Source of the DNA: Thermothelomyces thermophilus ATCC 42464
Lineage: Eukaryota > Ascomycota > Sordariomycetes > Sordariales > Chaetomiaceae
Assembly (NCBI RefSeq): GCF_000226095.1
Contig: NC_016475.1
Coordinates: 2,418,001 to 2,482,000 of the forward strand
Reading direction: 5' to 3'
Length of the DNA: 64,000 nt
Positions 11,144 to 34,269 of this stretch are shown here, one piece after another; the stretch's first letter is position 1, and the number at the start of each line of letters is the position of its first letter. Below the pieces are notes generated by a model. It saw only the letters and a program-made list of their open reading frames with translations. It made no database searches and was not told where the DNA came from. A program made the position numbers and the translations under genes.

Positions 11144-11401
11144 ATGGCCAGCCTCGACGGCAACGCGCCTGAGTTGTTTGCCAACATGGACGGAGGTTTG
11201 GATGTCTTCGACCTTGGGGATGCGGCGCTGGGAGACAGCGGTCTTGCGGGGGATTTCGGTGATGGAGCCCTTGGCAGTTCGGAGCCAATCTCGACGGCTC
11301 CTACTTCAGTTACCACTACTACCGCAGCCGAGACCGTCTCCCCTATTAGTATTGCGGGTGGGACGCTATCTGACGCTTCGCCGGATGTTGCCGGACCCTC
11401 C

Positions 11402-11443
<42 letters not shown>

Positions 11444-12225
11444 CGGCAGCAGCAACAGCATCCCGGCTTCTTCGAGTCGGCTACTACTCCGCAATGGGAA
11501 TTTCAGAATACACCACCGTATGACTCCCCGATCAACCCCTTCGGTACTGCGCCCCAACCGACTTGGGAACTCCCGCTCAACCTCAGCAAGCCGCCCCAAC
11601 CCCAACAACAAACATCTTCCTACCCTCAGACGTCTACCGCCGCCACAAACGACCCGAATCCTGCCCCTTCCACCTCGGCGGGCAATGTGCCCCTAGCCCC
11701 AGCATTTGCGCCAAGCTTGCAACCCGCCCAGCCAGAGCATATTCGGAACATTCAGGACACACTCACGCCAGCGCAGCGTGAGCGCCTCAAATCCATTGCC
11801 ATGCCTCCGCATCTTCAGTATCACTCGCCCCAGAGCAACGCTGGCAGTCCGGACTCCGCGTCCAGCGGCCAAGACAAGGCCGCCCTGTCGTCGCCCGACC
11901 CTGCCGCGCCGGCGAAACCCACCAGCAGGAAGCGCAAGTCATCGGCTTCCGCCGACGACGACGACGATGAAGATGAGGTTGAGCAGCCGGTCAAGAAGAC
12001 GGCGCATAACATGATTGAGAAACGGTACCGGACCAACCTCAATGATAAGATAGCAGCTCTGAGAGATAGCGTTCCTTCACTACGGATCATGTCAAAGAGC
12101 GCACGCGGAGAAGACACGACCGAAGACAGGGAGGAGCTTCACGGCCTGACACCTGCCCACAAACTGAACAAGGCGACGGTAGGTTTAAACAATAACCCGA
12201 ACCCGCCCCCCACCCCCCCCCCCCC

Positions 12226-12268
<43 letters not shown>

Positions 12269-14475
12269 ACCCTCTCGCTCTTTCAATGCTTCATCAAATG
12301 CGGCGGTCTGACGGCGTCTAGGTCTTGAGCAAGGCTACCGAGTACATCAGGCACCTGGAGAAACGGAATAATCGTCTCCTTGAGGAGAACAGCAACATGC
12401 AGGCGAGGATTGCCGCCTTTGAGAAGCTGTTCATGGCCGGCGCCATGAGCGGCCAACTGCCCAATCCGCTGCAGCAACAACCCGCTCCGATGCAATATCC
12501 TCAGGATACGAGCTCCTACTTGAACACGCCCATGGCAACACCTCGGGGCCCCGACCCCCCGGGGATGATCCCCATTCCGGACGACATGAAACGAATCCTC
12601 GCGGCCCAGCAGATGAACGCCGGCCGTCCATATCCGGTGCCCGCGCAACAGTTCGGCCAGAACCCAACGTTTATGCGGCAGCAGCAGATCCAACAACAGC
12701 AACAGCAATCCCAAGCACAGTCCGGCCGCTGGAACCCTTACCTGGGGAAGCTCATGGTGGGTTCCCTCGCCGGCTTGATGCTGGTCGAGGCGCTCGTCGA
12801 ATCCGAGCCCTCCGGCGACAGCACCGATTCACGCGGCCTCGGCCTTGTTCCCTCGGTCAACTACATTACCTCGTTTGTCCGATCTTCCCACGTCAGCGTC
12901 GGGGGTTATTACGTCTCGGCAATCCACTTGCTTGCCAAGTTGCGGCTCCTCTCCCTCCTGGGCTTCGTCTTCTGGCTGGCCTGCTCGTCGTTCGTAGACA
13001 CGTCGGCCTTCAAGCCTTCCAACAAGACCGAGAACACCGCCGCCGTCGTCAAGGCTGTGCCATCTCTCGCCTCGCCGATTCATGTCAGGAGACAGGCCTG
13101 GCTCACCGCTATCCAAACCGTTTGGGTACCTAGGCATAACATCTTCCTCGAAGCTGCCGCCCTGCTTCTCAAGACGTGGAAGTACACTTTGAGGAACCTC
13201 GTCGGCTCCCACAGCTACCTCTCGCTCGCCGGCCTGAGTGAGGAGCAAGAGGCCGCCCGGATCAAGGCTTGGTCGATCGCTCTGGACGCTCAGCTCGCAG
13301 GCGGCGATGTCGAGATCAACAAGAGCCGTCTTACGCTAACCCTGATCGCATCGGGCACACTCCCCGACACACCCCTCCGGCTGATGCTAAAGGCGTTGCA
13401 TATCCGGGTCCTGCTTTGGCAGCTCAACGGCGCCCGCTGGGCGGCCAACGTGATTGCCGCGAAGCTTGCCAGGGACAGGTGGAACGAAGCAAGACAGCTG
13501 AACCGCATCCTCAACTCGCTTCCAGAGGGCGATGCTTCCGCTGATGACGCCCTTCCCGAGTACCTGGCCACCCTGATTGAGCAGGATTGCGACGAGGTCC
13601 TCACCGATGCCATCATCCAGCGTGTGCACAACCTCGCTTGGAATCGGCACACCACTCATAACGTTGTCGGGAAGATCGACGGCATGGACACCGTCGTCGA
13701 AGACGCCGCCGTGCGCTCGCCCATGGACGCCGTTGCGGCCTGGTATTCCTGCCTGATACTCCATCGCGTCCTTCTAGCCAGCCTTCGCCAGCCCCGCGAC
13801 GACCTCGCCGCCGCCCACCGTCCCGAAGACGCCATCGCTCTGGCGGCCAAGATCGCCCCCATCGGTTCCAACGCCCAGGTCCGCGCCCTCGTCGCCCGCG
13901 CCGTGTTTGCCGAGGGCGCACGCGGCTCGCACATCGTCGCCGCCCTCCAGGCGCTGGGCCCCTCCGTCAATCCGGATAAACACCAGGATTACCGTCGCGG
14001 CGTCCCGCCGCTGATCGACTCCCCCATGACCTCGATCATGCCGGATCCCGACGCGCAGATGGCACTGCGCTGCGCCATGGGCATCGCCCAGCTTCAGAAA
14101 TTTGAGAACCCGCCCACGGCAGCGTATCCCATCATCTCTTCGGTACTGCCGGCCGGCACCGACATCGAGAAGGTCTCGCTACTGGGCTATGCCGCGGCGT
14201 TCCGACTTATGGAAACTCTCAATCGACACGCCGTGGCGAGGGAGACGTCCGCTCGGTCCCTGGAGAGGTTGGCCGGCAGTCTTCGAATCTGGATGGGCTG
14301 CGAGCGGGCCGCGGGAGAGAAGCTCGGGGTGGATGCCGCCATGCGTAGCGCCATGATCAAGCGCTGTCTGGCGGTCACCAAGAGCGTGGTAGGCATGGAG
14401 GCTGAGGCCGACCCGGGCTATTGGAGTATGGATGATTGTGCGGGTGCCGACGGGGAGGGGGAGGATGGATGTTGA
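11144..14475 (+). CDS. sre1: Sterol regulatory element-binding protein (membrane-tethered bHLH factor)
   Basis: Two exons, 11144-12178 and 12322-14475, encode 1062 residues. The acidic N-terminus is followed by a polyQ run (from about residue 88). The bHLH has the basic region [17 protein letters not shown], whose Tyr in place of the usual Arg is the SREBP signature. The intron splits the loop, and helix 2 plus a zipper follow ([19 protein letters not shown]). Two hydrophobic segments at about 487-505 and 548-568 would form the membrane hairpin in the ER, and a long alpha-helical C-terminus follows, as in fungal SREBPs. Known role: cleaved when sterol or oxygen is low (Dsc complex and rhomboid protease in moulds), releasing the N-terminal factor to activate ergosterol, iron and hypoxia genes. 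Family identity is firm. No SCAP-type partner is visible here. Confidence 0.92.
12179..12321 (+). other. SREBP intron with C14-A41 homopolymer tract
   Basis: The donor GTAGGT at 12179 and acceptor TAG at 12319-12321 join ACG to GTC in phase and restore the bHLH loop to helix 2. Inside are 14 C (12213-12226) directly followed by 41 A (12227-12267). That purine run lies where fungal introns are usually pyrimidine-rich. Confidence 0.85.
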
Positions 14476-15905: not shown

Positions 15906-17345
15906 TCAAGCCTTGATCCCATTCATCAGCGGCGCGGAATTGGGCAGCCCAGGAGACCTAGGCCTCTGCCGCTCCGGGTTAGGCGTCGAGCGCCGAAGGA
16001 GCGACGGGTCCCCGATGCGCGATGCCATGCGGTCGGGCACGAAGTCGGGCGTTGGAGACCGCGAGAGAACGGTGGTGTACTCTGTGCCCTCGGTGAACTC
16101 GGCGGACTCGTTCCCAGCCGGCGGTGAGACAGGGCGCAGGTGGCGGCGGGGTGCGGAGAGGTCCGGAGACGGAGAGCGCGAGCGTACCGGATACTCGGTG
16201 GCCGGCGTGGCGCGGAGGAGGCGGGAGGTGGTTGGCTGGGGGCTGTGGATCGTCGAGGCTGGGAACTCGTCCGTTACGATGGTTGTTGGGACGGTGGCGG
16301 GGCCTGTGCGAACTTTGGATGGAAGGATTTGCTCGAAGCCCTGAGCTTGGGCTACCTGTTCGATGTCCTTGAAATACTGTCCAAGTCATTAGGCGGGGCG
16401 AGAAAAGAAAGATAAAGTCTGATTGGGGTGTTGCTTTTTTGGGGGTACCTTGACAGTCTTGACTTGCAGCTCTAGCGTCGCGTCCTCGTCGCACACAATC
16501 ATCGAGTGTGGGTGCAGCTGCACGGCCGAGAGCGTCCACATGTGATTGACCCCCTGTTCGACGCATCGCTGCAGGGCGATGGCTTTGCGGGCGCCGAGCG
16601 CGAGCACCACAATCTCGCGTGCCTCCAGCACGGTCTGGACGCCCACAGTCAGAGCCATCTTCGGCACTTTCTCGAGATCGTCGCCAAAGAAGCGGCTGTT
16701 GGCTAGGATGGTGCCGTAGGCGAGTGTCTTGACCCGGGTGCGGGAAGCCAGGCTGGAGCCGGGCTCGTTAAAAGCGAGATGGCCGTCCTCGCCCATTCCT
16801 GCGAGAAACAAGTCGATGCCGCCCGCTGCCTGGATCTTGGCTTCATATTCGACACACTCCGCCTCTAGATTGGGGGCATTCCCGTCGAGAATGTGGACAT
16901 TGCTTGGGTGGATGTTGACGTGGGAGAAGAAATGCTTCCACATGAAGGAGTGGTAGCTCTCAGGGTGGTCCCTGGGAATGCCGATGTACTCGTCCTGTGC
17001 GAGAGGGTTGGTCTCTTCTCAACACCCACTCGACTAGTGCTCGACTGCTTACCATGTTGAAAGTGACAACATTCTCAAAGGATACCTGCCATGTTCCCGT
17101 CAAGCACGCATCAGCACACATCAAGATCGAATCACGAGTCGAGCTGCGGCTGTCCCCCGTCTTACCTCGCCAGCTTTGTATTTTTCTACAAGCCTTTTGT
17201 AAACACCAAGCGGGGTACTCCCAGTTGGGAGACCCAGAACGAAGGGATGTGCTGGTGTGGGGGCGAAGTGGTTGATACGGTCGACAATGTAGTTCGCGAC
17301 GTAGGCACTGGCGGCCTCGGCGTTGTCTCTGATGATGAACCTCAT
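15906..17345 (-). CDS. dam1: Glucosamine-6-phosphate deaminase/isomerase
   Basis: Exons 17166-17345, 17053-17085, 16449-16994 and 15906-16376 are all in phase and give 409 residues. The enzyme converts GlcN-6-P to fructose-6-P and ammonia, the last step of GlcNAc catabolism, in the cytosol. The NagB fold is plain: start MRFIIRDN, phosphate loop [19 protein letters not shown] (catalytic Asp) built across a 33-nt exon, [12 protein letters not shown], and the lid/active-site stretch [16 protein letters not shown]. Catalytic domain and length match the family up to about residue 260. A further extension of roughly 140 residues, rich in Pro, Ser and Arg, lies mainly in the last exon and looks disordered; it has many SP motifs. 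This is the left-most member of the GlcNAc cluster, and it shares a 2.2-kb divergent promoter with the kinase gene. Confidence 0.93.
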
Positions 17346-19564
17346 CTTTAGTCAACTCCTCGATTAGGACGGTGCTGATTTCGGTAATGCGTCAAAAATG
17401 CTCTAGTAAGAAAGGCTTAGTATAACAGGGTTGGATAGGGTCGTGTCGTGTGAGCTGCTGCAGTGAAGAATGAATCGCTAGGTCGGAGATTCTAAGGGTG
17501 ATGGTAGCAGATGATATGAAGGGGACTGGTTAAACATTCGGATAGCACCCGGGGACAAAGACTGTGGATAAGACTGGGGGGACATGTGAGTGTTAGCGTA
17601 ACCGCGAGCTCGTCGGCCACTGGCCGGAGCGCCTGTGTGAAACGAACAGAGGATAGCATCGGTCATGGCGGCTGCCGGGCGTGCCAGGTGTCGATGGGCG
17701 AACATCGCTGGAGGCATGGAGTCACAGATGGAACGTTCTTGCGGCCAGGTTCTCTCCCACACAGTAGGCGGCACAGTGGCGAGTTGGGGAGCCATAGACT
17801 AAGGATGGGCCCAACGGACTGGTGCTGCAAGCAGGGTCTCTTTGCCTTGTCAACTGGAGAACTGGCAGGTCACAAGTCGCGCAGCGCTGGGTCCAATGAG
17901 GGAACGTAGAAGATCGGTCATGACGGGAACAACCGCAACTGTCAGGCGGTCCCCGAACTTTTACTATACAGGGTTAGCTCCTTCCTCGATTCTTTGTCCG
18001 GCGAAGGGCAGGCGCAGGTCGGTCTTGCCAAGATGGCAGCCTGAGAGTAATCACGATCTATGATATAATAATACTCAGCACATTCGTACTCGGAAGGAGC
18101 AATCAGCTGTCGGCATCAGCGTGAACTTCGCCTTCGGGTTCAACTCTCTGGAGAATTTGGGTAATGAATGAGGCTCTTCGCATCCTACACGGGTCTGCAG
18201 GTGGTCCCGCCCCAAATTACTTGCAGACGACTAACTCCATGGCTCGATGCTGAGGCAGTGTTTGGAATTGATGGTTCTGATTCTCGTCTCATGCAAGGTG
18301 AATTAAGCTTTTGTCGGGCCCATGCGCCTGCCCGAAGAAGACGGCGCCAAGCTGCCTGCACTGCATGCCCCACATATTCCCGCTGACGCCTTGGATCCAT
18401 CCGCCCCCGCCCCACAGTGCACCGAAGCTAGTCCGATCGACAACAGCTCCCGTCGCAAGTGGAACGGGGCACTGGCAACTAAACCCCAAGGCAACGTTAC
18501 GTCCCCTAGTGTTCCCCCGGGGGGCTTTGAGTACGCAGCGGTCCACGGCAGCGGCCACCTCAGCGCAGGGACACTCGGGATCCTCACTCTTCCCACCGAG
18601 TCGGGGCAGGGCATTTTCTCGGCACTTTCGGGCTGCGACAAGAGCTCATTTCGTATCCGTAGTCGCAGGTTTCTCGCCGGCACTCCACCGCCCCTAGGTA
18701 CCCTGGGCTGGCGAGTCGCATCACCACGCCAGGGTGCCGACTTCTCGATCTCTCTCCAGCGTTGCTACCGTCTTCCGCCATTCAACGCCCGCAATTGAAC
18801 TGCCATTGGCCACGCTCGCTACCCCTGGATATTGAACGATCTTGACGAACAGTCCCCGACCGCCTGTTGCCCTCTCGAACATCTGTCTCAAACAACCTTA
18901 CATAGTACGAAGAGGCCCGGTGATCCGCTCGGACCAGGCCTCATTCGTTCTTACAGGACCCTCACTTCAACCGGAACTTGAACGGTTCCTTGTCTTCCCG
19001 CCCCCACCTGTACGGGCCCGCTCTCGTAACCTCCTGCTTCCGCCTTCCTCGCGACCTTGTATGTACTTTTGTACTGTACGGTCCACACACTGCACTAGTG
19101 CGAGGGTAAAGGGCAGGTCGCCCTGTTGTTCCTTTTGCGCGCCTCCCGCTCCTGCACGGCGGCACCCATAGGCAGGTTTCATTTTTACCGTGTCAGCCTT
19201 TTTTTTTGGAGCCCGGCAGTGGTGTGTTTACGGGGCACACAGCGTGCCAACGGCCAGCTCGGGCAAGGTAGTGCGCGTGCGCGCTGAACCTGCTGGGCCC
19301 AGATCGATCCAACCAACGCTGTCAACCTTCGCTCCCCCCCCCCCTTTTGGTCATCTCGCTCTTTAACGTTGTTCAGTCTTCCTCGGCTGGGCTTGCCGAG
19401 TCGTCCACGGCACCTCTCTGCCAACCGCCGGAGGAGCTGCCTCGTATTTGCTGGAATGTGTCTCTCGTTCCGTCTCCTCCCTCGCTATTCCCTGGATGAC
19501 TTTAAAGCAAACACCCTGTCTTCTGCCAACGCTCTTTCCGGCTCTCATCTAGTGTCATGCCGCC
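17346..19564. promoter_or_regulatory. Divergent promoter region between dam1 and hxk3
   Basis: No gene is recognisable in these 2.2 kb; reading frames at 18311-18798 lack any family signature. As both flanking genes point away, regulatory sites for both should lie here. The minus strand has CGCAAAA at 19133-19139, matching the core CRCAAA(A/T) bound by Ndt80-type factors; the longer string CGCGCAAAAG recurs upstream of ron1. CT-rich tracts lie just before the hxk3 start. Confidence 0.45.
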
Positions 19565-19586
19565 ATGCCGCTCGTTTCCGCAATGA
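19557..19586 (+). promoter_or_regulatory. Nine-residue uORF overlapping the hxk3 start
   Basis: An ATG at 19557 opens a 10-codon frame (MPPCRSFPQ, stop TGA at 19584-19586). It starts 8 bases before the main ATG at 19565, in another frame, and ends within the main coding region. A ribosome using it could not reinitiate at the main start except by backward scanning, so it should lower kinase translation unless leaky-scanned. Confidence 0.6.
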
Positions 19587-21363
19587 TGTCGCTCCGGGAG
19601 GCCCTCCTCGCGGCTGTTAGGTCTCTCCTACGCGGCAAGTCCTTTCTCAAAGCCCTCCTCGCCTTCTGGACAGCCAGCCCTGTCACCCCTATCAACTCCC
19701 AAGATGCCGGGGCCAAGGTCAACGCCGACCCCGCAGCCGACTTCCTCGCCGAGGCCGAGCACCTGCTGCTGGGGTTCATCGAAGCCGGCGGGCTGAAACG
19801 CTTCTCGCGAAAGCTGAAGCGCCAGTTCAAGGAAAGGCTGTGGTCGAACACGGAGTGCATGCTGCCCTCGTACAATTCACAACTACCCACGGGGCGCGAG
19901 TCAGGCCAGTATCTCGCCCTCGACGTTGGCGGGTCGACGCTGCGCGTGGCCCTGGTGGAGCTCGGGGGCAAGGGCGCTGAAGGGGCAGAGGGCAGCATCA
20001 TCCGGATGGACACGTTCAAGATCGACAGCCATGTCAGGAATCTGAGGGGTGCCCGGTTTTTCGACTGGATGGCCGAGAGGATACAGCAGACCGTGGCCAA
20101 AGACAGCACTCGGGGACACGTCCCCGACGTCCCGCTCCTCATGGGGTTGGCCTGGAGTTTCCCTATCGAGTATGTAATCGGCTTATGTATATATATACCG
20201 CGCGATTAGCTCAGCCCGCTAACCGTACCAGGCAAACCTCTTCGAAGGGGGGCAAGCTGTCCGTCATGGGCAAAGGCTTCCTCGCCCACGAGGGTCTCGT
20301 GGGGCAGGACCTGGGAGACATCATCAAGTCCGCTTGCCAGAAGCAAGGACTGCACGTCGAGCTCTCGGCTATCGTCAACGATTCGAGCGCCGCTCTGCTT
20401 TCTGAGGCATATGTTACCCCCTCGACCCGCTTCAGCCTCGTCCTCGGCACCGGCGTGAACATCGCCGTCCACCTCCCAGTCAATACCATTGACCAGCCCA
20501 AATTCGGCGACCGTCCGAGCAGCTGGCACGAGAAAGCCAGCCATGTGATAGTCAACACGGAACTGGGCATGTTCGGCCACGACATTCTGCCCCTGACGAA
20601 ATGGGATAAGCTCCTCAAAGCCGACCATCCCCGACCAGACTTCCAGCCGCTAGAGCAGCTCGTCAGTGGATACTACCTCGGCGAGATCTGCCGCCTTGCC
20701 CTGCTCGACGCCATCGCGTCGACGGGCATCTTCGGCGGAAATGTGCCACCATCACTGCGGACACCTTACTCCCTCGACACTGAAACCCTGTCCTTGATCG
20801 AAGCGTGCGCCTCCCTCTTCACTTGACTTCTTGTTCTCTCTCTCTCGCTCTCTCTCCCCCCCTCTCCCCAGACCACTTGTTTTGCTGACCCAAGAATCAG
20901 AGACACCAGCCCGAGCCTCTCCGATGCCCTTCAAGCCTTCGCCGCCCGCCACCCCATCCCGTCTTACCGCCCCACCACGGCCGACATGTCCTTTCTCCGC
21001 ACCCTCGCATCCCACGTCACGCGGCGCTCGGCCTCGGTCGTCGCCGCCTCCCTCCACGCGCTCTGGGAGCTCAAGGCCGAGGCCGAGCGCGCCATGCTCG
21101 CGAGCCTGCCCGATCCGTCCGGCGCGTTCGCGTTGGAGACGGAGGCCGAGATCGCCCTCGCCTCGTCCAAGACGACCGTGGCCTTCAACGGGTCCGTGAT
21201 CGAGCAGTACCCCGGCTATAGGGCGCGGCTGCAGGCGTTCGTGGATGGATTGCTTGCCGAGGACGACGGTGATGGAGATCTCAAGAAGGGGTCAATCGCG
21301 TTGGTGGAGGCGAGGGAGAGTTCGCTGCGGGGGGCTGCCGTTGCGTTGGCTTGCTTGTCGTAA
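19565..21363 (+). CDS. hxk3: Hexokinase-family N-acetylglucosamine kinase
   Basis: Exons 19565-20169, 20232-20804 and 20901-21363 join in phase to 546 residues. The hexokinase fold is recognisable. The phosphate loop reads LALDVGGSTLRVALVEL, the sugar-binding part LGLAWSFPIEQTS, the catalytic Asp lies in IVNDSSAALL, then LVLGTGVNIA, NTELGMFG and SGYYLGEICRLALL. Ordinary hexokinases have RWTKGF where this protein has VMGKGF, as in fungal GlcNAc kinases such as Candida Hxk1/Nag5. It would phosphorylate GlcNAc to GlcNAc-6-P in the cytosol. The first 45 residues include an unusual hydrophobic/basic helix that could bind a membrane. Its position in the GlcNAc cluster supports this over the regulatory hexokinase-like proteins HxkC or XprF, which remain alternatives. 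A uORF overlaps the start. Confidence 0.85.
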
Positions 21364-22010
21364 TGTAGCCCCCCTCTCCCCCCAACCGGGTTGTTTCGTG
21401 TCGTGTCATGTCATGCCGTGTGTGGGCGTTTTTATTTGGGCGCAAGTTCGCGGGGTAATTTCGCTGTGCATACTATGGTGCCGCGGCCTTTCTATTGGTA
21501 ATTCGATGACTTGTTTGCTTGTATATAGAACGGAGGCATGTAGCGGTGCGGTTATCAGTTATGCGGGATGGGGGGCCAAGGTGGGATCTCGATATCCTTT
21601 TCAATTTCAGCATGATTCTTTGGCGACCATGAGGCTTCTGATGCAAGGTTGGATGGATGATGATGCCGTCTTCAGTAACCAATCTGCCCGGTAAATAACA
21701 CAACCCTCTTACCTCATGACCTAACTAGCTTCAGCCCCTGAAGACCCAACATTCAAGCGACAAATCCAACCAAACCACCGACATACAAACACATAAGGTT
21801 CCCAGAAAACTCCCCAGTGAGAGACGCCAATGCCATCCAGGATGCAATAAAGGAGCCAAAATAGAGAGCAGTTACATCCTTATATGTCTTTGCCCATTCC
21901 ATCCGTCCCCTTCGTCAAATTCATTCATATCATACAAAAGTAAAGTCACCTGATAACCAAGGGCCAAATCCGAAACCAAACCCTGACCCTGACTCGTTTT
22001 GCTTGGATTT
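21364..22010. other. Convergent 3' spacer between hxk3 and ron1
   Basis: These 647 bases separate the stop codons of two convergent genes. I see no reading frame with family features; the region probably holds both 3' untranslated ends. Confidence 0.5.
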
Positions 22011-24047
22011 TCACTCGGCGGCAAAGTACCGCTTTGCTTTGCTCCGCACCTGCTGCGCCTTGACTTCTGGCGGGACGATTGTGTGGTGGACGACGTGCGG
22101 ACGGTAGATGGCGTCGACGGGTGGCATCCTGTTTGTTTCGGTCATGGGTTTCCGTGCGTCAGCATTCATCTAGATTTCCCCCTGCCGGTGGGATTAGAAA
22201 AATAAAAGGGGGTGGGGGGGGGGGGAGAGGGGTTAGCCTTACCAGTCGTCCAGGCTGAGGGGAAAGTACTCGTATAACATGTCATCGGAGTCAAGCGAAC
22301 CCCCAAGATGGTCGTGCGCCCCGCTGCTGCTGCCGGCTTGCCCGGCGGACGCCAGGCCCGCCCCACCACCGGTGGAAGACCGCGTAGAGGCCTTAGTGGT
22401 GAGCCGAGGGCTCTGTGAACTATCGTTGGAGCTGGAACGGTTGGGCGGGCTGCGCTCGTCCTCGGATAGGGAGAGGGATAATGGGAGAGGCTGGGGCCCG
22501 GTTGTGCTGTTGCTGCGTTGTCTGACCGCGGCGGCGTTCGGATTCGCGTTGCCGGCGTTGTTTTGCTTCGCGTTTGCCGAGGAAGGGGGCTCTAGCGAGC
22601 CCCAAGAGGGTACGGGCGGGCGGTTAACGTTGGGCGAGGTCACCGCCAACTTCTTATTCGGATGTTGCGGGTTGGGCGTGTTCATGCCGTAGGGGGTCGC
22701 CCGGTCGGACGGTGATTGCTGGGAGGTTGTTGTGTGGTTAACAATGAACACGCATCGGGGTAGAGGAAGGTGTGTGTGTGTGTGTATGTGTCTCAGTCAT
22801 ACCTGTACGCCCGTCGTCGGGTTATACCGCTGCGTCTTGACCGGCGTGCCATCATCCTGCCTCTCCTGCTTCTCCTGCTTCGCTGCGGCAGAGCCCGAAC
22901 CTTCGGTGTTCCTCCTCTCTAGCGGCCGTTTGTCCCCCAGCGGGACCTCCTTTCGGCTATCAAAGTTCCTCGGGCTCCTTCCCCTCACGATCACGGGGCC
23001 CGACTGGATCTCGGCTACCTTGATGTATTCCCCCGCCTTGCTCTTGACCAGCAGGTTAATCTGCACCACGTAGTGCTGTTGTAGCCCCTTGCGCCGGCCG
23101 TTGTTCGCTGTCGCGTGCTTGAACTGCAGCCTCTTCCAGGCTACCGGGACCGAGACCCGGCTCCCGCCGTCCACCTCCTGGCCGGAGCCGCTAAAGTCGA
23201 GCGGGACCACGGGCGGCGCGCTCACTGCCTTGGACTCCTCGGCACCCAGCGGGGCATTGCTCCCCCTCCAGGGGATTGTGATCATCTCGGCGGCGCGGCC
23301 CTCGATGCTCTCGACCGCCGTGATGGAGGCCGCCAGCTCGACGACGGGGCCGCGCCGTCCCTGGTCGTCGACGTACTGCGCCACGTGCCGCGGCAGCGTG
23401 ATCTGGCCGGAGATCTGCCAGAGGTTGCGCCGGTAGCACGTCAGCTCGAGCGGGCGGCCGGTGGCGTTGCTGTCGGCGCCGAAGACGTCCTCGGCGACGA
23501 AGAACATGCCGTACAGCTCGCCCGTCATGGCCGGCTCGACGAACTGGCCCGTGTCGGTGAGGAGGGTGGCCTTTCCGGGAATGGGGGGCCCGAAGCTGAG
23601 CAGCTTGTTGTCGGGCCCTTCGTCGTCATCGTCTTGGGGCGAGGCGCCGCCTATGCCCATGTGACCGTAGAGGTCGTGGTGGCTGCGGTGGGAATCGGTG
23701 GGTGCGGCGGCGGCGTCGTGCGGCCCGCGCGAGTGGCTCCGGCCGGTGCCGTCGAAGGGCCGAGCCGGGTAGGAGAAGGGGTCCTCGAAGGTGGTGCTGA
23801 AGTTCTCAAAGTCGTAGGCAGTCGGGGTGAAGGGGATCTGGGGCACGTTGACGGGGTCGCTGGCCGGGGAGGTGTGGTTCGCATGGCCGTCGTTATCGAA
23901 GAGGTATGGCGGGTGTACCGACAGCATGGAGTCGTCGAAGGCCATCGAGGCGTCGAAGGCCTCCATCTCCGAAGCCGATATGGACATGGAGTCCGGGCCT
24001 GGAGCGGCGCCGGACGACAGCGCCGGCATGGAACTGAAGCCGGCCAT
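22011..24047 (-). CDS. ron1: Ndt80-family (p53-like fold) transcription factor, RON1-type
   Basis: Exons 22803-24047, 22243-22718 and 22011-22128 give 612 residues. The start at 24047 is the first in-frame ATG after an in-frame TGA at 24081-24083, though an out-of-frame ATG sits 5 bases upstream. An acidic, disordered N-terminus (about 1-130) precedes the Ndt80/PhoG DNA-binding region (about 140-410) with NKLLSFGPPIPGKA, LTCYRRNLWQISGQI, VAWKRLQFKHATANNGRRKG and the end KTQRYNPTTGVQ. A Ser/Pro/Asn-rich linker and a conserved C-terminus follow (DDWMPPVDAIYRPHVVHHT). Ndt80 paralogues VIB-1/XprG share some of this; the genomic setting inside the GlcNAc cluster points to RON1, which activates these genes in Trichoderma. 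Expected in the nucleus. Family certain, paralogue assignment by context. Confidence 0.85.
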
Positions 24048-25038
24048 CTCATCGCCGCTCCGGAAGAGCGTCTGGGCGATTCATGCAGGACTGCGCGGGA
24101 CTCGGATCGGAACTGCAGCGGCACGCAGGGTCGATATCGGCCGGGCATGACATCTGAGATAAGCCCGCTGTCGCACGCTCGGGGAATATGCAAGGCTAAG
24201 CTGTGCGTGGCTGGCGATTGGAACTGGGCCGGCGCGGAGGAGCATACCGCCAAGACTTTCCCGCATGCAGCTCCGATCGCCCACTCCCCGCGTTTTTGTA
24301 GGCAGCCCTTCCCACTAGCGTCCTCAGTAGTGTGTACTGTATAGTAGGGGGCGACCTCTCTCTCTCCACTGTAACCTCGCAGGTCACGGCTACCCCGGAA
24401 GCAGGCCTAACTGGGGATGGATCCTTGCCAAGGTCCCCGCTGAGGTTTGATAGCAACGGCCCGGTTACCACACCAGCTAGCTCTTCGTTGTTTGCCAATC
24501 AACTTGGGGGTGATGCTCATGCGCATACACTAGGTCCTGGTGCAGGAGCCGCTTCCAAACCTGAAAGCAGGATCCCATGGCTCCTTAGGTGGGCAAACCC
24601 CTCTTCTGTGAAATTGCCCGGTTTCCTGATGGCGCGCGCCCGGCGGCGGCGGCGTCTCTCGGCGCTTCTCAAGGGTCTGGGCGCCGCTGCTCCGTGCGAG
24701 ATAAGCCGGTGGAAACGAGTCCAATAAACTCGCGCCGCGCAAAAGCGACAGGAGCCGACCACCTCAAGATTGTTCCAATGCAAAAAGAAAAATAATGAAC
24801 TAGCAGCTGGGACAGCTCCAACCTGCGCACAATATGTACCAAAATATTTAATTTGGAAGTGTCAGGTTCCAAGGTGACGAGGAAAGAGAGAAATCAAAAA
24901 AAAAAAATAATGCTGCGGGATATATAGCCGGGCATAACATATATCTAAGCGTCAGTCGCCGAAAGAATGTCCAACCCACTCAACTACGAGTCAAGTCGCG
25001 TTCACCATGACAACACCAAGACTAGCTGCCATCTTAGA
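24048..25038. promoter_or_regulatory. ron1 upstream / nag3 downstream region
   Basis: No gene is seen. It separates two minus-strand genes, so it holds the ron1 promoter and the nag3 3' end. CGCAAAA lies at 24738-24744 on the plus strand, within a string CGCGCAAAAG also found in the hxk3/dam1 promoter; self-regulation by an Ndt80 factor would fit but is unproven. Confidence 0.4.
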
Positions 25039-28000
25039 TCAAGAAAAGTCCTGCCACTACAAACAGTCAGCTTAGCTCTCTGACCACGACACTTTACGTG
25101 TCAAGCAGAGGGAAACACACTCACATTATCCGGCGAATTCGTAAACTCCTCAAAGACCTGCACCACTTCGAATCCCATAGCCAACAGTGGCTCATGCGCG
25201 TCATCCTGCACCCAGCTCAGCACACTTTTTAGCGACTTGTGCGTCTTGTTCTGCCGCAGGCCCATCAGGGCGAGACCCTGCAGCACCAAGGTTGCCTGAG
25301 CCGACGACGGCGCCACGATCGGGCTCACGATCCCCCCGACAGGCTCGTCAGGCCGCGCCGGAGAGGGCTGCAGGGGCGGGATGAAGCTGGCCAGGGTGCT
25401 CCCGGGCTTGCAGACGATTACCGTGCCAAGCAGCGCCTCGGCGTGGCCCTTGGCCCGGACGACACCGCAGCTCTTGGTCTCTTGCAGCGCGAAGCGGTAC
25501 AGCTCCAGCACCTCCGGGCTTGCGTGTGCGCTGACGTGGGCCAGCACGTTGTCGGCATTGTCCAGGCCGTGGATGAGGTCGAAGGTGATGCCGGCGCGCT
25601 GGATGCTCTGCAGCAGCCCTTCGGGGGCAATCCAGCTGTTGAGAGATGAGACGGCCATGTTGACGAGGCGCCGTGGGAACTGCAGGTCCCAACCCCCGTT
25701 GGTAAACCACTGCTTGAGCCCGGCGCTGTCGTCCGCGGGGATGCCTAGGAAGACGCCCGGGAAGGACATGCCCAGCTGTACCTTCTTGATGCCGCGCTTC
25801 TGGGTCAAGCCGCGCAGGGCTCGCCGTTGGAGGGACCTGCCGATGGAGACATTGCGCTTGGCGGGGTCGACAAAGAGAGCGCCGATAATTCCCGTCCCTT
25901 GGACAAAGTAGGTTGCGCAGAAGCCGTAGAGCGCCTGAGTGCTGCTGTTGCGCACTACGAAGTGGGCTTCCTCGATGTTGGGGCTGAACAGCTCAAAGGA
26001 ATGCGCGCTCGTGGTCTGCAGGAACTGGTGGGCAGGCGCGCTCGCTCTGGCCAAGGATTGTAGGAGGTCCTGTAACCCCTTGGCGTCTCGGTCGCGGTCG
26101 TACGGCTCGACGAGCCAGTGCTGCCTGGATTTGAGCACCTTTCTGCTCTTCCTGAGGGTCCCGGGCAGTGTGCCCCGGGGCTTGATCTTGCCGCATAAGA
26201 CCCGTACGAGAGCGGCCATAGCCGTCTCGGTGAAGTCAAAGGTGCAGATGTAGGTCCCGACCGACTTGTCCATCGCGAAGTCGTAAGGGGAGCTGACGGC
26301 AACCACGATGAGCGACTTCTTCTGCCCATTTGCCCTCAGCAATGAGCACATCATGGAGACGTGCTTTGTAAAGCCTGCCTGGTACAGGTTGCGGTTGGCG
26401 TCCGCCGTCACGATGATGATACACGAGGCTCGGTTGATGAGGTTTTCGTGTACTAGTCATGCATTAGGAGGGAGCAGCGCGGCAGGGCCCGTAGGGGGAG
26501 GAGACTGACCTGGCCTGACACCGTTCGCGGTGTAAGATGTATGTAGCAGCTTCCCATGCCTTGCACGAGCGAGGGATCTTCCGAGCTCGCGAAATACTCC
26601 CTCGCCGCTCATGATGGCTCCCCGATCACGGTGGACCCATTTGTCGTGGAGTGTTACGGGGTCGATTTGTTTCTTCTCCAGCAACGCCTTGGTCATGGAG
26701 GAAGCCGGTAGCGGCCTTACCAGTGGCGTGAGCAGCAGCAGTTCCTCTTCCTGGTGCATGGAAGAGGTCAAGGGGAGCAGCTTTTCGTTGTCTCGTATGA
26801 CGGCGATGGAGTCGTCGTAGGCCTTCAGCGAGAGTGCGAGGTGGCCCGGATGGATCTTGGACAGCAAGCTGATGCCGGGAGGGTTCAACGCCTTCTGCCA
26901 GGAAGTGCACGACTTCTTCATGCGGACGATTCGCCTGAGCGACGTGTAGATGCGCTCTTTCGTGATGAGCTCATTCTCCACGCCCAGTTTCAGGCCGGAA
27001 ATGGCCTCGAGTTGCACATCGTAGGCGCGACAGAGCATGACCAAGTCGCACCCGGCCTCGACTGCCATGACCGTGCCCGTTTTGACGCCAATCTCGTTCC
27101 TGAGACCCTCCATCTCCAAACACTCCGAGATGGCGACACCTTGGAAGCCGAGCTCGTTTCTGAGCAGGTCGTCGACCACCTGTTCAGACAGACACGCGTG
27201 GTTGACGTTCATGGACGGGTTCGCGATGCCACAGCCACCGACAAACATGGCGTCCAGCTTGCCGGTGGCGATGGCGTTGCGGAAGGGAACAAGGGCGCTC
27301 AGAGAGAGTTCCTCCAGGGTCTGGGTGATGATGGGGATGTCCAAGCTGGAGCCGAGAAAATCCAGGTTGCCGTAGGAAGGGAAGTGTTTCCCGCAGGTGG
27401 CAACGCCGGCGTCCTTGTAGCCGTTCATAGCGGCGATGCCGTACTGGGAGACCTCTTGGGGGTCGTCGCCGGTCGCTCGCACGCCCAGCGGCTGGTAGCG
27501 CGCATTGGTGAGCACGTCCAGCACTGGTCCCAAGATCAGGTTGACACCGACGGCCGAGACTTCGGTAGCGGTGGCCTTGGCGATCTTGTAGGCCAGGTCG
27601 GCACTGCTGGCGGCAGCCTGGCCCATGGAGCTGGGGAACTGGCAGATGTAGTCCTCGTCAAAGAGGCTGTTGACGCCGCCATTCTCCTGGTCGAGGGCAA
27701 TCAGCAGGGGGTAGGGATGGCCGGCCTGACGGGCGATGGTCTGGAGCTCCTGGACGAGTCTTGCCGTTTGCTCGGCGGCTGCATTGCATTCCGGTTAGTA
27801 TACGACCTCGATTATAATCAAGCATCTTGCGAGGCGGCCGGGTGTACAACATTTGAGGTTCTTTGCCGTTAGCAGGACCGAGCCCAGGTGATGCTGCTCG
27901 ATTAGAGTACGGATCTGGGGTGTGACTTCGGTCCCATCCCATCCCATAATCAGCATCTGACCGATGGCCCTGACGCACTGTTAGCGGCCGTCTCTAATAG

Positions 28001-28311
28001 ACCTTAATCGTGTCCAGTAATTCATTTATTAATCATCCATCCATCCAACCAGCCAGCCAGCCAGCCAGCCAGCTATCCGCCCATTCAGTCATCCCATTCC
28101 TCGCCACGCCTTGATGCTCGACCGCCATGATGACGGACTCCTCCGGGATGACCGGGAGCGCTGAGCAACAGCAACCTCACTGCCACACGTCAAGCCACAG
28201 ACGGGGCGGAAACGACCACGTCAAACGGAAAAAAGAGATAAGAAGTGCAAAGACGACATACCAGTCGAGGTCCTGCCATAGTGGGTCCAAATCGCCATCC
28301 AAGGTGCTCAT
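25039..28311 (-). CDS. nag3: GH3 beta-N-acetylglucosaminidase fused to a GNAT domain
   Basis: Exons 28262-28311, 27851-27969, 26510-27778, 25125-26452 and 25039-25056 are in phase and give 927 residues. No signal peptide is present, so the enzyme is probably intracellular. Residues about 17-350 are a NagZ-like GH3 barrel: DWAIGQMLIMGWDGTEV, LIALDQENGGVNSLFDEDYI, GVNLILGPVLDVLT, KHFPSYGNLDF and GVAISECLEMEGL. A middle alpha/beta domain follows to about 530. The rest holds a GNAT acetyltransferase fold (GALFVDPAKRNVSIGRSL resembles the acetyl-CoA loop). Known role: hydrolyses GlcNAc from chitobiose or other N-acetylglucosaminides. The usual DSH and SDxLxM catalytic motifs are altered. The last exon (WQDFS) is tiny; without splicing the frame would end at 25101. 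Intron 1 (292 nt) carries an AGCC repeat. Confidence 0.87.
28051..28073. repeat. AGCC tetranucleotide microsatellite in nag3 intron 1
   Basis: About six tandem AGCC units follow a short run of CATC units at about 28034-28046. The array lies inside the first intron of nag3, so length change would not affect the protein. Confidence 0.8.
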
Positions 28312-29723
28312 GTTGTGCTCGGGCTGCGGCAATCGGCGCGGTGGGTTCGGGAACGGTGCTCGGTCGATGGCGGCATAATGCTCCGCCGAATGGTCCGGGA
28401 AAGCCCCAACAGCAGTTGAAGTGTAACAATGCTGCTGCTGTTGCTACTGCTGCTACTGCTGATGCTGCTTGCTCTCAGGAACCATAACTAACGCAGTAAA
28501 GTTACCATACGTATGTCAGCACAATGTGGAGCGCGTTCCGTACCGTTTGCTTGGTCGCTTTTACTGAAGTGGAATCAAAAGTCGACCATTGCTCGATGTG
28601 GATTCCGGGTTCCAGTGTGCACTCGGCGCACCAGAGAAAAGGCTGCAGCTCCTCTGTGTGTAATCCGTACTGTAATCCGTACCAGTATGTGTTGCACCTC
28701 AGTGGCCAATGAGAGGCCGGCCCCGCCAAGGCAGCCTAGCCACAGAGCTGTCAAAGAACGCTTGGCAAGAACGATGGTGGAACGTTTGGGTTACGTTAGT
28801 GAGCTCCAATCGGGCAACGTTACATGCCTGTTCAAGTCTCGAAGCTCCATCAAACACCATCTTGACGCTCAACCATCCGCCGCCAACCGCACGCATCATC
28901 GGGCCGGAGTGGTGGAATGTGCTTCTCCAACAGGGCCTCGAGCAAGCAACCTGGAACTGGGTAACACCTCCATTCCAGGTTGCGTCTCGACGCCACCCTT
29001 CCTCTTCGCACAGTGCAACAGTGCAATCTGGAACCCACCTGCCAAACCGTCACACCATCAGTTATCCGACGGGCCCTGTATTGGGAAACATGTCTCAACA
29101 GACAGCCCAAAGAACCAAGACCCGCTCTGCACCCCGTCCCAGCGAATGCTGCGACTAGCGGAGACCACGGGAGTCTTTGAGGAACTGGGACTGGCTCTCT
29201 CTCATTGGGAGGAGTGTGGGAGAGAGGGCCGATGACCTTGATTGATTGCCAGGGGCGCCGTCCTGCTCCAAACGTCACGGGGCCAAAGCGTGAGATAACG
29301 CAAACCGGAACGCTACACTAGTTCCCGTTCTTTGGTCCCAGGAGCACCGGTGTCACCGGGCGGCGAGTCGCGCTCCCGGTAACGGCGGCCTGAGGCCGGT
29401 GGCACTATGGGACCCCATCGGGACCCATCGGGCAAGTGCGATTATGCTTCTTTGCCATTGTACAGTCCAGACAAGGTAGGGCAGTGTGTAAGGTAGTGCA
29501 GTTCCTCGCAGGGTCGGAACATTAGTCTCAAGCAGGTCATATTTCAATCGGCTCGCCCTCGTTCTCTCATCCTGGAATGTCATGGCGCCCACAACGAAAC
29601 CCCCGGGCAACCTGAGGCCCTACCACATCCTGACTACAGCCCTCGGATCGGTGACCTGAGTGCCGTCAACAGCATTCCCTACCCTAGATCGCCCGAGTTC
29701 CAGTGCACACAGACTCTTGCACA
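28312..29723. promoter_or_regulatory. Divergent promoter between nag3 and dac1
   Basis: The two genes point away from each other across 1.4 kb. A trinucleotide stretch rich in CTG/CTA lies at 28429-28470 in the nag3 leader. CGCAAAC at 29299-29305 partly matches the Ndt80 core. A 240-codon frame at 28513-29235 has no family features or codon signature and is taken as chance. Confidence 0.45.
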
Positions 29724-31547
29724 ATGCCATCGGCTATCCGCTCGGGGTCACCCCGCCACACCGGCATCACCAAGCTGACCAACTGCCGCCTCGTCCGCGG
29801 CGATGAGCTAGTGTGGGACGACATCTGGGTCAGCTCGGCCACGGGCAAGATCATCCGCAGCCAGTCAGCCTTCTACGATGAGCTCATCATGCCTGACGAG
29901 GTCGTTGACCTCGGCGGCCGTATCGTGTCGCCCGGGTTCATCGAGTGCCAGCTGAACGGAGCTTACGGCTTCAATTTCTCCACCATGACCGATGACATGT
30001 CCCAGTACGGCAAGCAGCTGCGGGACCTCAACAAGAAGTTGGCCCGGACGGGAGTCACCTCCTACGTGCCGACCGTGACGAGCCAGACGAGTGAACTCTA
30101 CAAGAAGGTTTGGGATTCGACTCGGTTCCTGCACCCGCCAACCAACCGTAGTAGACACGCAAACGTCCTGACTCTCCTTCTTCTCCTCAGGTCCTCCCAT
30201 ACCTCGGACCGTCAGGCTCCTCTCGCCGAGCCCACGATGGCGCCGAATCCCTGGGTGCCCATGTCGAAGGGCCCTTTCTGAACCCAACCAAGAACGGGGT
30301 GCACAACACCTCCGTCCTACGCGTCGCTAACTCGCTTTCCGACCTGGAGGATATGTACGGCGCCGCCAACATCACCCCGTCCGCCTCCTCCTCCTCCTCC
30401 TCCGCCTCCTCGCAAGACTCGGACTCCTCCTCAACCTCGGGGCCAGAGGAGGAGGGGAAAGTGGAGGAGAAGAAGCACGGGCGTGAGGGCACCATCCCCA
30501 TCAAGATGATCACCGCCGCCCCCGAGCTCGGGGCCATGACGAGCCTCATCCCGGCCCTCGCCTCGCGCGGCATCGTCGTCTCGATCGGCCACTCGGAAGC
30601 CACGTACGAGCAGGCCTCGGCCGCCGTGGCCGCCGGCGCGACCATGATCACCCACCTGTTCAACGCGATGCGGCCGCTCCACCACCGCAACCCGGGCATC
30701 TTTGGCGTGCTCGGCGCCCCCGAGCCGCAACGACAACAACAAGAACAACAAAAACAACCAACAACCCCGCCACCATCACCGCAGTGGCAGCAGCAGCAGC
30801 AGCAGCAGCAGGAGCAGGAGCAGGAGCAGCAGAAGAAGCAGCAGCAGCCGCCAAAGAGGCCCTACTTCGGCCTCATCGCCGACGGCATCCACCTGCACCC
30901 GGCCACGGTCAAGATCGCGTGGCACGCCCACCCGGCCGGCCTGGTCCTGGTCACAGACGCGATGCACATGGTCGGCCTGCCGGACGGGCGGTACCCGTGG
31001 ACCAACGGCGAGGGGGAGCACTTCATCGTCAAGAAGGGCAGCGTGCTGGAGCTCGAGGGCACGGGGGGCGTGATTGCGGGGAGGTAAGAAAGGGAAAAAA
31101 AAAAAAAAAAAACCCGTCTCCCTTTCCCTGTGTTCTTCCTTTTTCCTTCCGTCTTTTGTTTTCCCCCTTGATTGATGCTTCTGTTCCTTCCCCCTTTTCT
31201 TTGCTCTCCCTCGTTCCCAATCCACTCACTCGCCTTTTTTGAAAAAATGTACCGAATTTGACAACACACACTGACTCGGCCGAACCAGTTCCATCACCCT
31301 CGTCGAGTGCGTCTCCAACTTCCTCAACTATACGGGCGCCACGGTCCCCGAGGCTCTGAGGGCCGTGACGGCTACTCCCGCCGCCATGTTGGGTCTGGAG
31401 GTGGTCAAAGGATGTCTCGAGGCCGGCGCGGATGCCGACCTTGTGGTCTTGTCGGAGAACAACGACGAAGGCGGGAGGAGAGAACTGGTAGTTGACGAGG
31501 TGTGGAAGTTTGGTGTTAGGATTTTTGAGCGCGGCCGTGACTGCTAA
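29724..31547 (+). CDS. dac1: N-acetylglucosamine-6-phosphate deacetylase with low-complexity insertions
   Basis: Exons 29724-30107, 30191-31083 and 31289-31547 give 511 residues in phase. The enzyme removes acetate from GlcNAc-6-P to give GlcN-6-P for the deaminase. The amidohydrolase fold is clear: VVDLGGRIVSPGFIE, GVTSYVPTVTSQ, metal-site motif HVEGPFLNP, VSIGHSEATYEQA, MITHLFNAMRPLHHRNPG, LIADGIHLHP and VTDAMHMVGLPDG with the catalytic Asp. Two insertions interrupt it: a Ser/Glu/Lys-rich stretch at about residues 189-229, and a Gln/Glu/Lys/Pro-rich stretch at about 306-350, with an uninterrupted run of eight Gln, between the FNAM and IADGIH elements. The usual length is about 400-430 residues, so these insertions explain most of the excess. 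Right-most gene of the GlcNAc cluster. Confidence 0.93.
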
Positions 31548-31872: not shown

Positions 31873-34269
31873 TCACGTCAGCGTAAACGAGTTGCTCGTC
31901 CCAGTAAAGGCATTAATACTCCCAATCAACGGCTTCGAGTCGCCATAATATTTGATCCGGTACGTCCCGGGCGCATCTTGCTCGTCGGTCTCCCAGTCTA
32001 TCGTCACCTCACTGTAGCCCAGCATGAAGTTGGTGCGCTTCCAGGTGTACACCAACCGCCAGTCGTAGTCGCTCAACACTTGCGTCCACGTCTTTCCATC
32101 GTCCCCAAGCTTCTCCACGGCGGCAAAGGTGCCCTCGAGGCGCAGGTTGTTTCGCGGGTTGGCACCCTGGAAGGTCGCGCTGATGACAGCACCGCGCGCT
32201 GACGAGCTTGGGGGCTGCTTGATGACCGCGCCAAAGCTCTTCCCGGGAGGCGTGCCATCCTGGACGACACCCGTGATAAAGCTGAGGCTCTTTTCACGGT
32301 TGTCTGGCGGCGTGGGGCCGGGCGGCGGACTATCCTTGGCTGTGGGGGCCAGGTAAGGCAGGGCGCGGAGGGTTAGGTTGATGTAGGCAGGCAGCTCCCA
32401 CTGGCCGAAAAGGGTACTTGCGCCTTCGTACCGCTGCACTGCGTACTCTTCGGGAGTAGTAACGTAGTGGGAATACGAGTTGGCTGGGCCACCGAGGACG
32501 ACGAAGGGCTCGCTGTCGCCGGTTATGGAGTACTCTGACGCAGCCTCCTTCACGGCGTTGCGCCAGCGGCGACCAGCCATGGTGGTCGCCTCAGACGGAG
32601 AGACGATTATGATAAACTGGCCCACTCGGAGGGTTTGAACGTCAACGATATTCGGGCTCCACGCGTAAGGGGTGTCCATCTCTCCGACATCCAGAAGGAC
32701 GGCCTTCGGACCTTGGCATTCCTTCTGCTTAGCGCTGGGGGCCCGGAGAAGTCCCGACACAACCTGCCAGAGAGGGTTGTTGGGCGAGCCTGAGTCGCCC
32801 TGGGTGAAATCAAATGCCCCGGGCCAGTCTGACGTCCCCGCGGCGAATGAGTACCCGAGAGCAGCGGGACAGGTCTGCACCACGGTGCCGTTGTCCAAGG
32901 GGAACGTGTAGTACTGCATGTCTTGGAAGTAGTGGAACGATCTGACAGTCGAGCCCACAACCGGTGTCGACTTGGAGTCGAACGAGTCCTAGATAGTACT
33001 GTCAGAACGCCAAATCTGCTGCTGCACTCGAAGCACACTTACATAGAGCGCCTTGGCTCCTGAAAACTGTCTCCGGGAGATCTCGTAGCAGCTAGAGACG
33101 CCCAAGTCGAGCTTCTGGAACAACGGCCCTCTGCCATGGCACGACTGGGACTTGCCGTCGGCACAGGTGCTGGTTTTGAAGTCGCACATGCTTCCAGAGC
33201 CGTCATCACACCACGCACCAAGGACATTTGGGCTCGTATCTCCGACATTGGCCTGAGAGAAACCAGCAACGAATCCGTCGGTAGCCTGGTCGGTTCCCTT
33301 TACTGACTGCTCAAAGAGATAGGCCGCGAGGCCCTTGTTGTCTCCAGAGACGTGAGTGTTGTTGCCCAGCATTGACGTCCCGTGGACCGCAAACCAGGTC
33401 AGAACGCCAATGCTCTTCCCGTCGGACGCTCTCCTAAACCGCAGCAACGTCAATGTCTTGTCGACATCGTCGGTGTACTGGGCCCTTTCCGACTCGGGAT
33501 TAGCCAGATACGCGTATAGGCTCCTGTTGATGTTGGCGTCGGAGATGGTGGTGGTTCCAAAGTCGAGGTACCCCTGAGGCAGTCAGCACGCGCGATGCAA
33601 CCTCGGCAGGCGAGACACAGGAGACCATACCTCCTGGAGCGACTCGTGCGCTCGCTTGATCGATAGCACGGTGCCGTCCACAATGGCTTGGTAACCCTGG
33701 CGATCGAAACCGAGACTCGTAACCTGCGGCAGGAGGTAGTTGAACCAGCCTCCCGGCCCGCTGTGAGAGTGCGTGCCCGTTATCGCCACGTTTGACTGCC
33801 CATATACCGAGTACTCCGGGCCCAGGGCTGCGAGGCCTTCGAGAACACCATTGCGGACTGCGGTGTCACCGGACTGGGTGTCGAGAACGACGTAGACAAA
33901 CCGGTTGTTGGTCCCCACCTCGCCGATGATGAAGGAGCGGGCGTAGATGCGCTGCCTCAAGCCAGTCCCGACCTGTTCCATGTTCGCGTACCCTGCAAAG
34001 TTGATCTCGACCACCGGACCGGTGATGTCGGCCTTGCCCACCCCGATGAGATACTTGTCGCCGGCTCTCGCTGCCCTGGGGTGCGAGAGGAACGGATTAT
34101 CTGCGTCATCATGGTGCTGGAATCTGGAAGCCAACTTCTCCTCGCCCTGGGCCGAGATGAGCAGGACTGAGGCGAAGAGCGCGAGCAGCAAGATAGTCAC
34201 GGTGGAGATGGTGGCAGCCAGGGCTCTGTTGGGAGCCGGCGCCCCGCGGCGATGGTGCTGAAACGGCAT
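31873..34269 (-). CDS. Neutral/alkaline ceramidase
   Basis: Exons 33631-34269, 33043-33573 and 31873-32988 give 761 residues, a usual length. It hydrolyses ceramide to sphingoid base and fatty acid. A hydrophobic segment at about 19-40 is a signal anchor, so the catalytic part faces the secretory lumen or outside. Family motifs are YLIGVGKADITGP, INFAGYANMEQ, the zinc-ligand stretch ITGTHSHSGPGGW, WFAVHGTSMLGNN with SGDNKG, and GDTSPN, whose Ser corresponds to the nucleophile of the family motif GDVSPN. The C-terminal Ig-like domain follows (TWKRTNFMLGYSEVTIDWE). It lies next to the GlcNAc cluster but has no obvious link to amino-sugar use. Introns are short and in phase 0. Confidence 0.93.

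Follow-up and report, generated by a model that had tools for sequence, protein, structure and literature searches.

RON1-type clusters for use of the chitin sugar N-acetylglucosamine (GlcNAc) are widespread in ascomycetes and occur, for example, in both Neurospora crassa and Trichoderma reesei (PMC4950302). The T. reesei cluster comprises hxk3, dac1, dam1, nag3/ngs1 and ron1 (PMC4950302, PMC12176254) and depends on both RON1 (PMC4950302) and NGS1 (PMC12176254). In N. crassa, the third NDT80 factor, NCU04729, is located inside the GlcNAc cluster (PMC4950302). Candida albicans employs the Ngs1/Rep1 pair, in which a GH3 GlcNAc pocket lacking the catalytic dyad is combined with a GNAT region and an Ndt80-like protein serves as recruiter, with NGS1 encoded outside the catabolic cluster (PMC5063960). 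A further relative, RmNag from Rhizomucor miehei (PDB 4zm6), keeps the DSH triad (PMC12176254) and has been described as a beta-N-acetylglucosaminidase (PMC4680927).

In this study, we analyzed a 64-kb stretch of the Thermothelomyces thermophilus genome (C4:2418001-2482000), hereafter referred to as the window; genome-wide counts refer to the 7-contig, 38,744,216-bp assembly. Like N. crassa, this fungus belongs to the Sordariales. The ortholog comparison is based on published papers together with the PDB and Pfam. By gene content, the locus contains the same five gene families as the T. reesei cluster, likewise including an Ndt80-like activator and a GH3-GNAT protein (PMC4950302, PMC12176254), and its ron1 lies within the cluster, as NCU04729 does in N. 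crassa (PMC4950302). The pairing of a dyad-less GH3 pocket and GNAT region with an Ndt80-like factor resembles that of C. albicans, whereas ngs1 is found here inside the cluster (PMC5063960). We place at about 0.9 the probability that this locus is an intact RON1-type GlcNAc utilization cluster with three enzymes, a RON1 activator, an NGS1 sensor and an unlinked transporter.

Organization of the cluster

All five genes are present, and each is intact and spliced in splice-consistent gene models. The dam1 (minus strand) and hxk3 (plus strand) genes are divergently transcribed from an intergenic region of 2,219 bp between start codons (window 17346..19564), ngs1 (minus) and dac1 (plus) diverge from a second region of 1,412 bp (28312..29723), and ron1 is positioned between the two pairs. 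The Pfam identities of the five neighboring genes and the arrangement of two divergent promoters around a central ron1 thus agree with what a sequence-only reading of the window had described. Homologs of hxk3, dac1 and dam1 adjoin one another, as judged from gene models, Pfam and PDB matches, and the Ndt80-like factor sits within the cluster according to its PF05224 domain and position. Identity as a RON1-type GlcNAc catabolic cluster is well supported. Since the protein formerly read as NAG3 is best read as a GlcNAc sensor (see below), the cluster is best interpreted as three predicted enzymes plus two predicted regulators. It represents an ordinary, well-conserved example of a cluster kind that is already known; among the titles and abstract openings of the literature searched, no description of this cluster in Myceliophthora/Thermothelomyces was found.

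An HLH region followed by DUF2014, which we take to mark an SREBP-type regulator, neighbors dam1 (window 11123-14472), and a neutral ceramidase gene adjoins dac1 on the opposite strand (31876-34275). Farther away, a nitrite reductase-type protein with Pyr_redox, BFD and NIR_SIR domains is encoded at 50109-52400.

Catabolic enzymes

The dam1 gene (window 15906..17345, minus strand; 4 exons, 409 aa) encodes a glucosamine-6-phosphate deaminase with a Glucosamine_iso domain (PF01182). Residues 1-259 of DAM1 match the glucosamine-6-phosphate isomerase PDB 1ne7 (E 6.6e-115), and the PDB alignment shows that the DGHxAFNEPG motif is retained. Past the deaminase domain, the C-terminus carries a Ser/Pro/Arg-rich extension of ~150 aa (window 15909-16358) that lies outside the PDB alignments.

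The dac1 gene (29724..31547, plus strand; 3 exons, 511 aa) encodes a GlcNAc-6-phosphate deacetylase containing an Amidohydro_1 domain (PF01979). DAC1 aligns with the GlcNAc-6-phosphate deacetylase PDB 7nut (E 1.2e-77) in three stretches flanking inserts, and the EGP, GHS, THLFNAM, ADGxH and VTDA motifs, which presumably serve metal binding and catalysis, are all retained. The gaps in the alignment correspond to two in-frame low-complexity inserts at residues 187-231 and 305-351, the first Ser/Glu-rich and ~45 aa long (window 30365-30499), the second Gln-rich, ~47 aa long and bearing a CAG-type run (30719-30859); these inserts are possibly strain-variable. A genome search detected no second copy of either dam1 or dac1.

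The hxk3 gene (19565..21363, plus strand; 3 exons, 548 aa) encodes a hexokinase with both Hexokinase_1 (PF00349) and Hexokinase_2 (PF03727) domains, and its genomic context suggests a hexokinase of the GlcNAc-kinase type. Compared with hexokinases in the PDB (best E 5.5e-59), HXK3 retains the Asp of the ND motif, which we assume to be the catalytic residue. The aligned Thr-Lys of the TWTK motif, presumably a sugar contact in hexokinases, is replaced by Gly-Lys, and the sugar pocket may consequently be altered. Judged by their conserved residues, DAM1, DAC1 and HXK3 all look functional; their orthology and substrate specificity are assigned by analogy with published orthologs.

The GH3 protein as a predicted GlcNAc sensor

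The ngs1 gene (window 25039..28311, minus strand; 5 exons, 927 aa), initially designated nag3, encodes a protein with a Glyco_hydro_3 domain (PF00933) and a sub-threshold Glyco_hydro_3_C match. By sequence, its best PDB relative across both halves is RmNag (4zm6, E 2.1e-89), aligned in two stretches that cover the GH3 domain and the C-terminal half. Residues were compared in the three printed PDB alignments (4zm6, 6k5j and 3bmx) among 88 matches. In all three structures the sequence reads KHFPGHG...DSH, whereas NGS1 reads KHFPSYG...GSS; the Asp-His dyad is therefore lost, with D replaced by G199 and H by S201. The nucleophile Asp is likewise replaced by E275, SE standing in place of the TD found in these structures. 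The signature of active GH3 beta-N-acetylglucosaminidases of the NagZ/RmNag type, KH(FI)PG(HL)Gx4D(ST)H together with the Asp nucleophile, is thus absent from NGS1, which lacks the triad that RmNag keeps (PMC12176254).

D86, R157, K187 and H188 of NGS1 are each offset by 12 positions from D74, R145, K175 and H176 of C. albicans Ngs1, which contact GlcNAc, and V674 and G684 are spaced like its acetyl-CoA-contacting residues; the putative equivalence takes its positions from PMC5063960 and relies on motif and spacing. The GlcNAc-binding residues thus appear to be kept. At the dyad His position, C. albicans Ngs1 has Leu whereas NGS1 has Ser (PMC5063960). The second RmNag stretch spans NGS1 residues 463-768 (i-Evalue 4.3e-15) and covers the C-terminal GNAT region, in which Pfam reported no GNAT domain at E <= 0.01. 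GNAT motif A has the form Q/RxxGxG, and the equivalent position in NGS1 reads RNVSIG; both of these observations count against the sensor interpretation.

Given the loss of both the dyad and the nucleophile Asp, the apparent retention of GlcNAc-binding residues and the RmNag-like C-terminal half, this protein is a poor N-acetylglucosaminidase candidate and is best read as a predicted GlcNAc sensor, NGS1. The same course was followed in T. reesei, where nag3 was renamed ngs1 after a similar loss of catalytic residues; the discussion of that paper gives G-S-N in place of D-S-H, and a figure legend names Gly206, Asp208 and Glu282 (PMC12176254).

Alternatively, the GH3 protein could be enzymatically active within the cell, as a beta-N-acetylglucosaminidase or a phosphorylase, and complete a route from glucosaminide to fructose-6-phosphate. 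This alternative can draw on its strong similarity to NagZ-type proteins and to RmNag, which unlike T. reesei NGS1 keeps the DSH triad (PMC12176254), and on the first annotation of the ortholog as nag3 (PMC4950302). Su et al. also point out that, in Pezizomycotina, Ngs1 orthologs have retained a Glu serving as acid/base in beta-glucosidases, a candidate acid/base with which hydrolase activity may persist (PMC5063960). Against this alternative, the dyad positions are occupied by G199 and S201, and E275 stands where the nucleophile Asp would be. In T. reesei, moreover, strains deleted for nag3/ngs1 fail to grow on the free monomer (PMC4950302), and the cluster genes are among those most strongly downregulated upon ngs1 deletion (PMC12176254), effects that are not easily explained by a hydrolase. 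We therefore consider an active enzyme very unlikely and retain the sensor interpretation. The sequence-only reading is well supported as regards the cluster type. Its claims that nag3 provides an initial intracellular glucosaminidase step and that every step from N-acetylglucosaminide is encoded are not supported, given the NGS1 residue pattern and the published orthologs (PMC5063960, PMC12176254).

Elsewhere in the genome, a second NagZ-like GH3 protein, 27% identical to NGS1, is encoded at C7:2226703-2227677 in a 358-aa frame with a signal-peptide-like start, a KHFPGLG motif and DEN replacing DSH. Across prokaryote genomes, a search that reaches close relatives only returned six pattern matches to NGS1, none of which was confirmed.

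RON1 and the NDT80 family

The ron1 gene (window 22011..24047, minus strand; 3 exons, 612 aa) encodes an Ndt80/PhoG-family DNA-binding protein whose NDT80_PhoG domain (PF05224) spans residues 201-365 (123 bits). Its start codon is uncertain because the frame continues upstream, and one intron has two possible acceptors. The genome contains three NDT80-family genes, located in the cluster, at C2:1798k and at C6:1157k, a number also reported for N. crassa (PMC4950302). When compared within this genome only, the paralog closest to RON1 is C2:1798k (E 1.5e-41), followed by C6:1157k (5e-14), and the NDT80 domain is split by an intron in the C2 gene and unsplit in the cluster gene. The A. nidulans protein HxkC/XprF is known as a regulator, a point for the alternative that the central factor is a VIB-1-type starvation/incompatibility regulator and the kinase glycolytic or purely regulatory, the locus not being a GlcNAc regulon. 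That alternative, also favored by the paralogy of RON1 and VIB-1 (PMC4950302) and by the 32-52% identity of the C2:1798k gene across two aligned parts, is the least probable of those considered and very unlikely: C2:1798k and C6:1157k account for the remaining two members of the family, the intron interrupts the domain only in the C2 gene of this pair, the factor clusters with dac1 and dam1, both detected as single copies, and RON1/XprG and HXK3/HxkC are ortholog pairs (PMC4950302). A tentative assignment of the cluster gene as RON1, C2:1798k as VIB-1 and C6:1157k as FSD-1 fits both the sequence comparison and the published family (PMC4950302). The orthology also renders ill-posed the earlier proposal that best hits to VIB-1/XprG and XprF/HxkC would speak against a RON1-type cluster, since XprG or HxkC as top match would confirm that reading.

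Transporter

No recognized GlcNAc transporter was found in the 64-kb window by tblastn and Pfam, supporting the earlier claim that the GlcNAc symporter is absent from both the 16-kb cluster stretch and the window. With a UNC-93/NAG-T-like protein encoded on C7 as the tblastn query, the best match had an E-value of 1.6. The window contains 40 non-overlapping ORFs of 150 aa or longer; a Pfam scan of 20 of them identified a Na+/H+ exchanger as the sole transporter family, and the remaining 20 comprise 14 in the cluster stretch and six unscanned ORFs outside it. At 61191-62485 on the minus strand, two neighboring frames with 5 and 2 hydrophobic stretches, matching no Pfam family, encode a putative membrane protein. 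Because of this frame pair and the six unscanned ORFs, absence from the window is not proven.

At least three UNC-93/NAG-T-like genes, all above the PF05978 cut-off, occur elsewhere, at C7:3543856, C4:4049152 and C6:1704373, and ngt1 may be among them. An MFS_1 scan of the genome yielded 253 candidates, nine of which were scored, so more Ngt1 candidates are possible. C. albicans NGT1 is the founding member of TC family 2.A.1.58 (PMC2636803); UNC93A, UNC93B1 and MFSD11 are listed in this family as well (PMC5627054). A transporter missing from the cluster is not unusual and is indeed expected, since T. reesei ngt1 is likewise unlinked, lying distant from its cluster on chromosome 7 (PMC12176254), and since Ngt1 does not adjoin the catabolic genes in species having only Ngt1 (PMC3778022).

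A candidate promoter element

The two divergent promoters have GGCAACGTTAC in common, represented by GCAACGTTACGTC in the dam1/hxk3 intergenic region (window 18491..18503, plus strand) and by GCAACGTTACATG in the ngs1/dac1 intergenic region (28814..28826, plus strand). We treat both sites as leads only. The joint form, GCAACGTTACRTS, which was identified post hoc, has four exact copies genome-wide. Two are the defining promoter sites, the third is located ~630 bp ahead of the one GH20 N-acetylglucosaminidase gene that was detected, and the fourth is in AT-rich DNA. The UNC-93/NAG-T-like transporter gene on C7 has a copy with one mismatch in its upstream region, at a distance of ~1.25 kb, and the upstream region of ron1 lacks the element.

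Shuffling controls temper this pattern. For 10-mers found in both promoters as well as in the 1.5-kb region preceding GH20, 8 of 300 dinucleotide shuffles reach the observed number, compared with 20 of 300 for 9-mers and 34 of 300 for 8-mers; when the C7 8-mer is included, 73 of 300 do so. The results for 9-mers and 8-mers, like the C7 match, are therefore within or near chance. The 11 10-mers and three 11-mers shared by the two promoters are within chance (shuffle means 7.7 and 2.0). Genome counts show no enrichment over controls: GCAACGTTACRTS with at most one mismatch has 70 copies versus 117 for the reversed control, the 10-mer GCAACGTTAC has 27 versus 39 for its reversed control, and GMAACGTTACRTS has six, the same as its control. 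That four of the six GMAACGTTACRTS copies lie at GlcNAc genes is circular, because GMAACGTTACRTS was built from those four sites; beside the C3 site returned by the same search, no GlcNAc-related gene was evident among the ORFs, which were read without a family search. Three of the 27 GCAACGTTAC copies lie at GlcNAc genes and one (C5) in AT-rich DNA, and the 23 others fall within an ORF of 300 aa or more (9/23), inside a shorter ORF (5/23) or where no ORF is listed (9/23). Ten of 20 ORFs scanned, drawn from 11 of these 23 loci, match a family, and the only cell-wall-type neighbors among those scanned are a GH81 glucanase, whose ORF is preceded by the site at ~340 bp, and a non-NagZ GH3 protein. 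The 10-mer alone is not specific, and its other neighbors are mostly unrelated.

Other motifs were considered and rejected. The yeast Ndt80 core CACAAA has no copy in any of the three cluster intergenic regions, and the relaxed form CRCAAAW has 1, 0 and 1 copies across them. The palindrome CTTGSCAAG occurs once in each region (window 18024, 24424 and 28761), its only other window copy being at 12931, and as a shared element it amounts to one shared 9-mer, a level that chance can produce (30 shuffles gave a mean of 0.4 and a maximum of 3).

GCAACGTTACRTS may conceivably be a cis element of the GlcNAc regulon, acting via RON1 or a partner factor, and we regard this as a doubtful, weak lead. It resembles neither yeast Ndt80 CACAAA nor the adenine-rich ChIP-seq motif of Rep1, the C. 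albicans RON1 ortholog (PMC9925049), and the difference from the Rep1 motif weakens the cis-element interpretation and disfavors RON1 as the binder. A binding site for filamentous-fungal RON1 was not found in the excerpts of the literature available.

Proposed pathway and biological implications

In the pathway that these genes would form, GlcNAc would be released outside the cell, for example by the secreted-type GH20 enzyme, and taken up via an unlinked transporter, a step suggested by published orthologs. HXK3 would phosphorylate GlcNAc, DAC1 would then deacetylate the phosphorylated sugar, and DAM1 would deaminate the product to fructose-6-phosphate. By analogy with the published orthologs, RON1 would occupy the cluster promoters, intracellular GlcNAc would be bound by the dead GH3 pocket of NGS1, and the GNAT region of NGS1 may activate transcription.

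For this fungus, the analysis corrects the interpretation of one gene, whose product is predicted to be a sensor rather than an enzyme, and indicates that the missing transporter is no anomaly. A shared promoter element as a possible mark of GlcNAc-regulated genes is a point of some value; if true, GCAACGTTACRTS would link the dispersed transporter and the secreted enzyme to the cluster.
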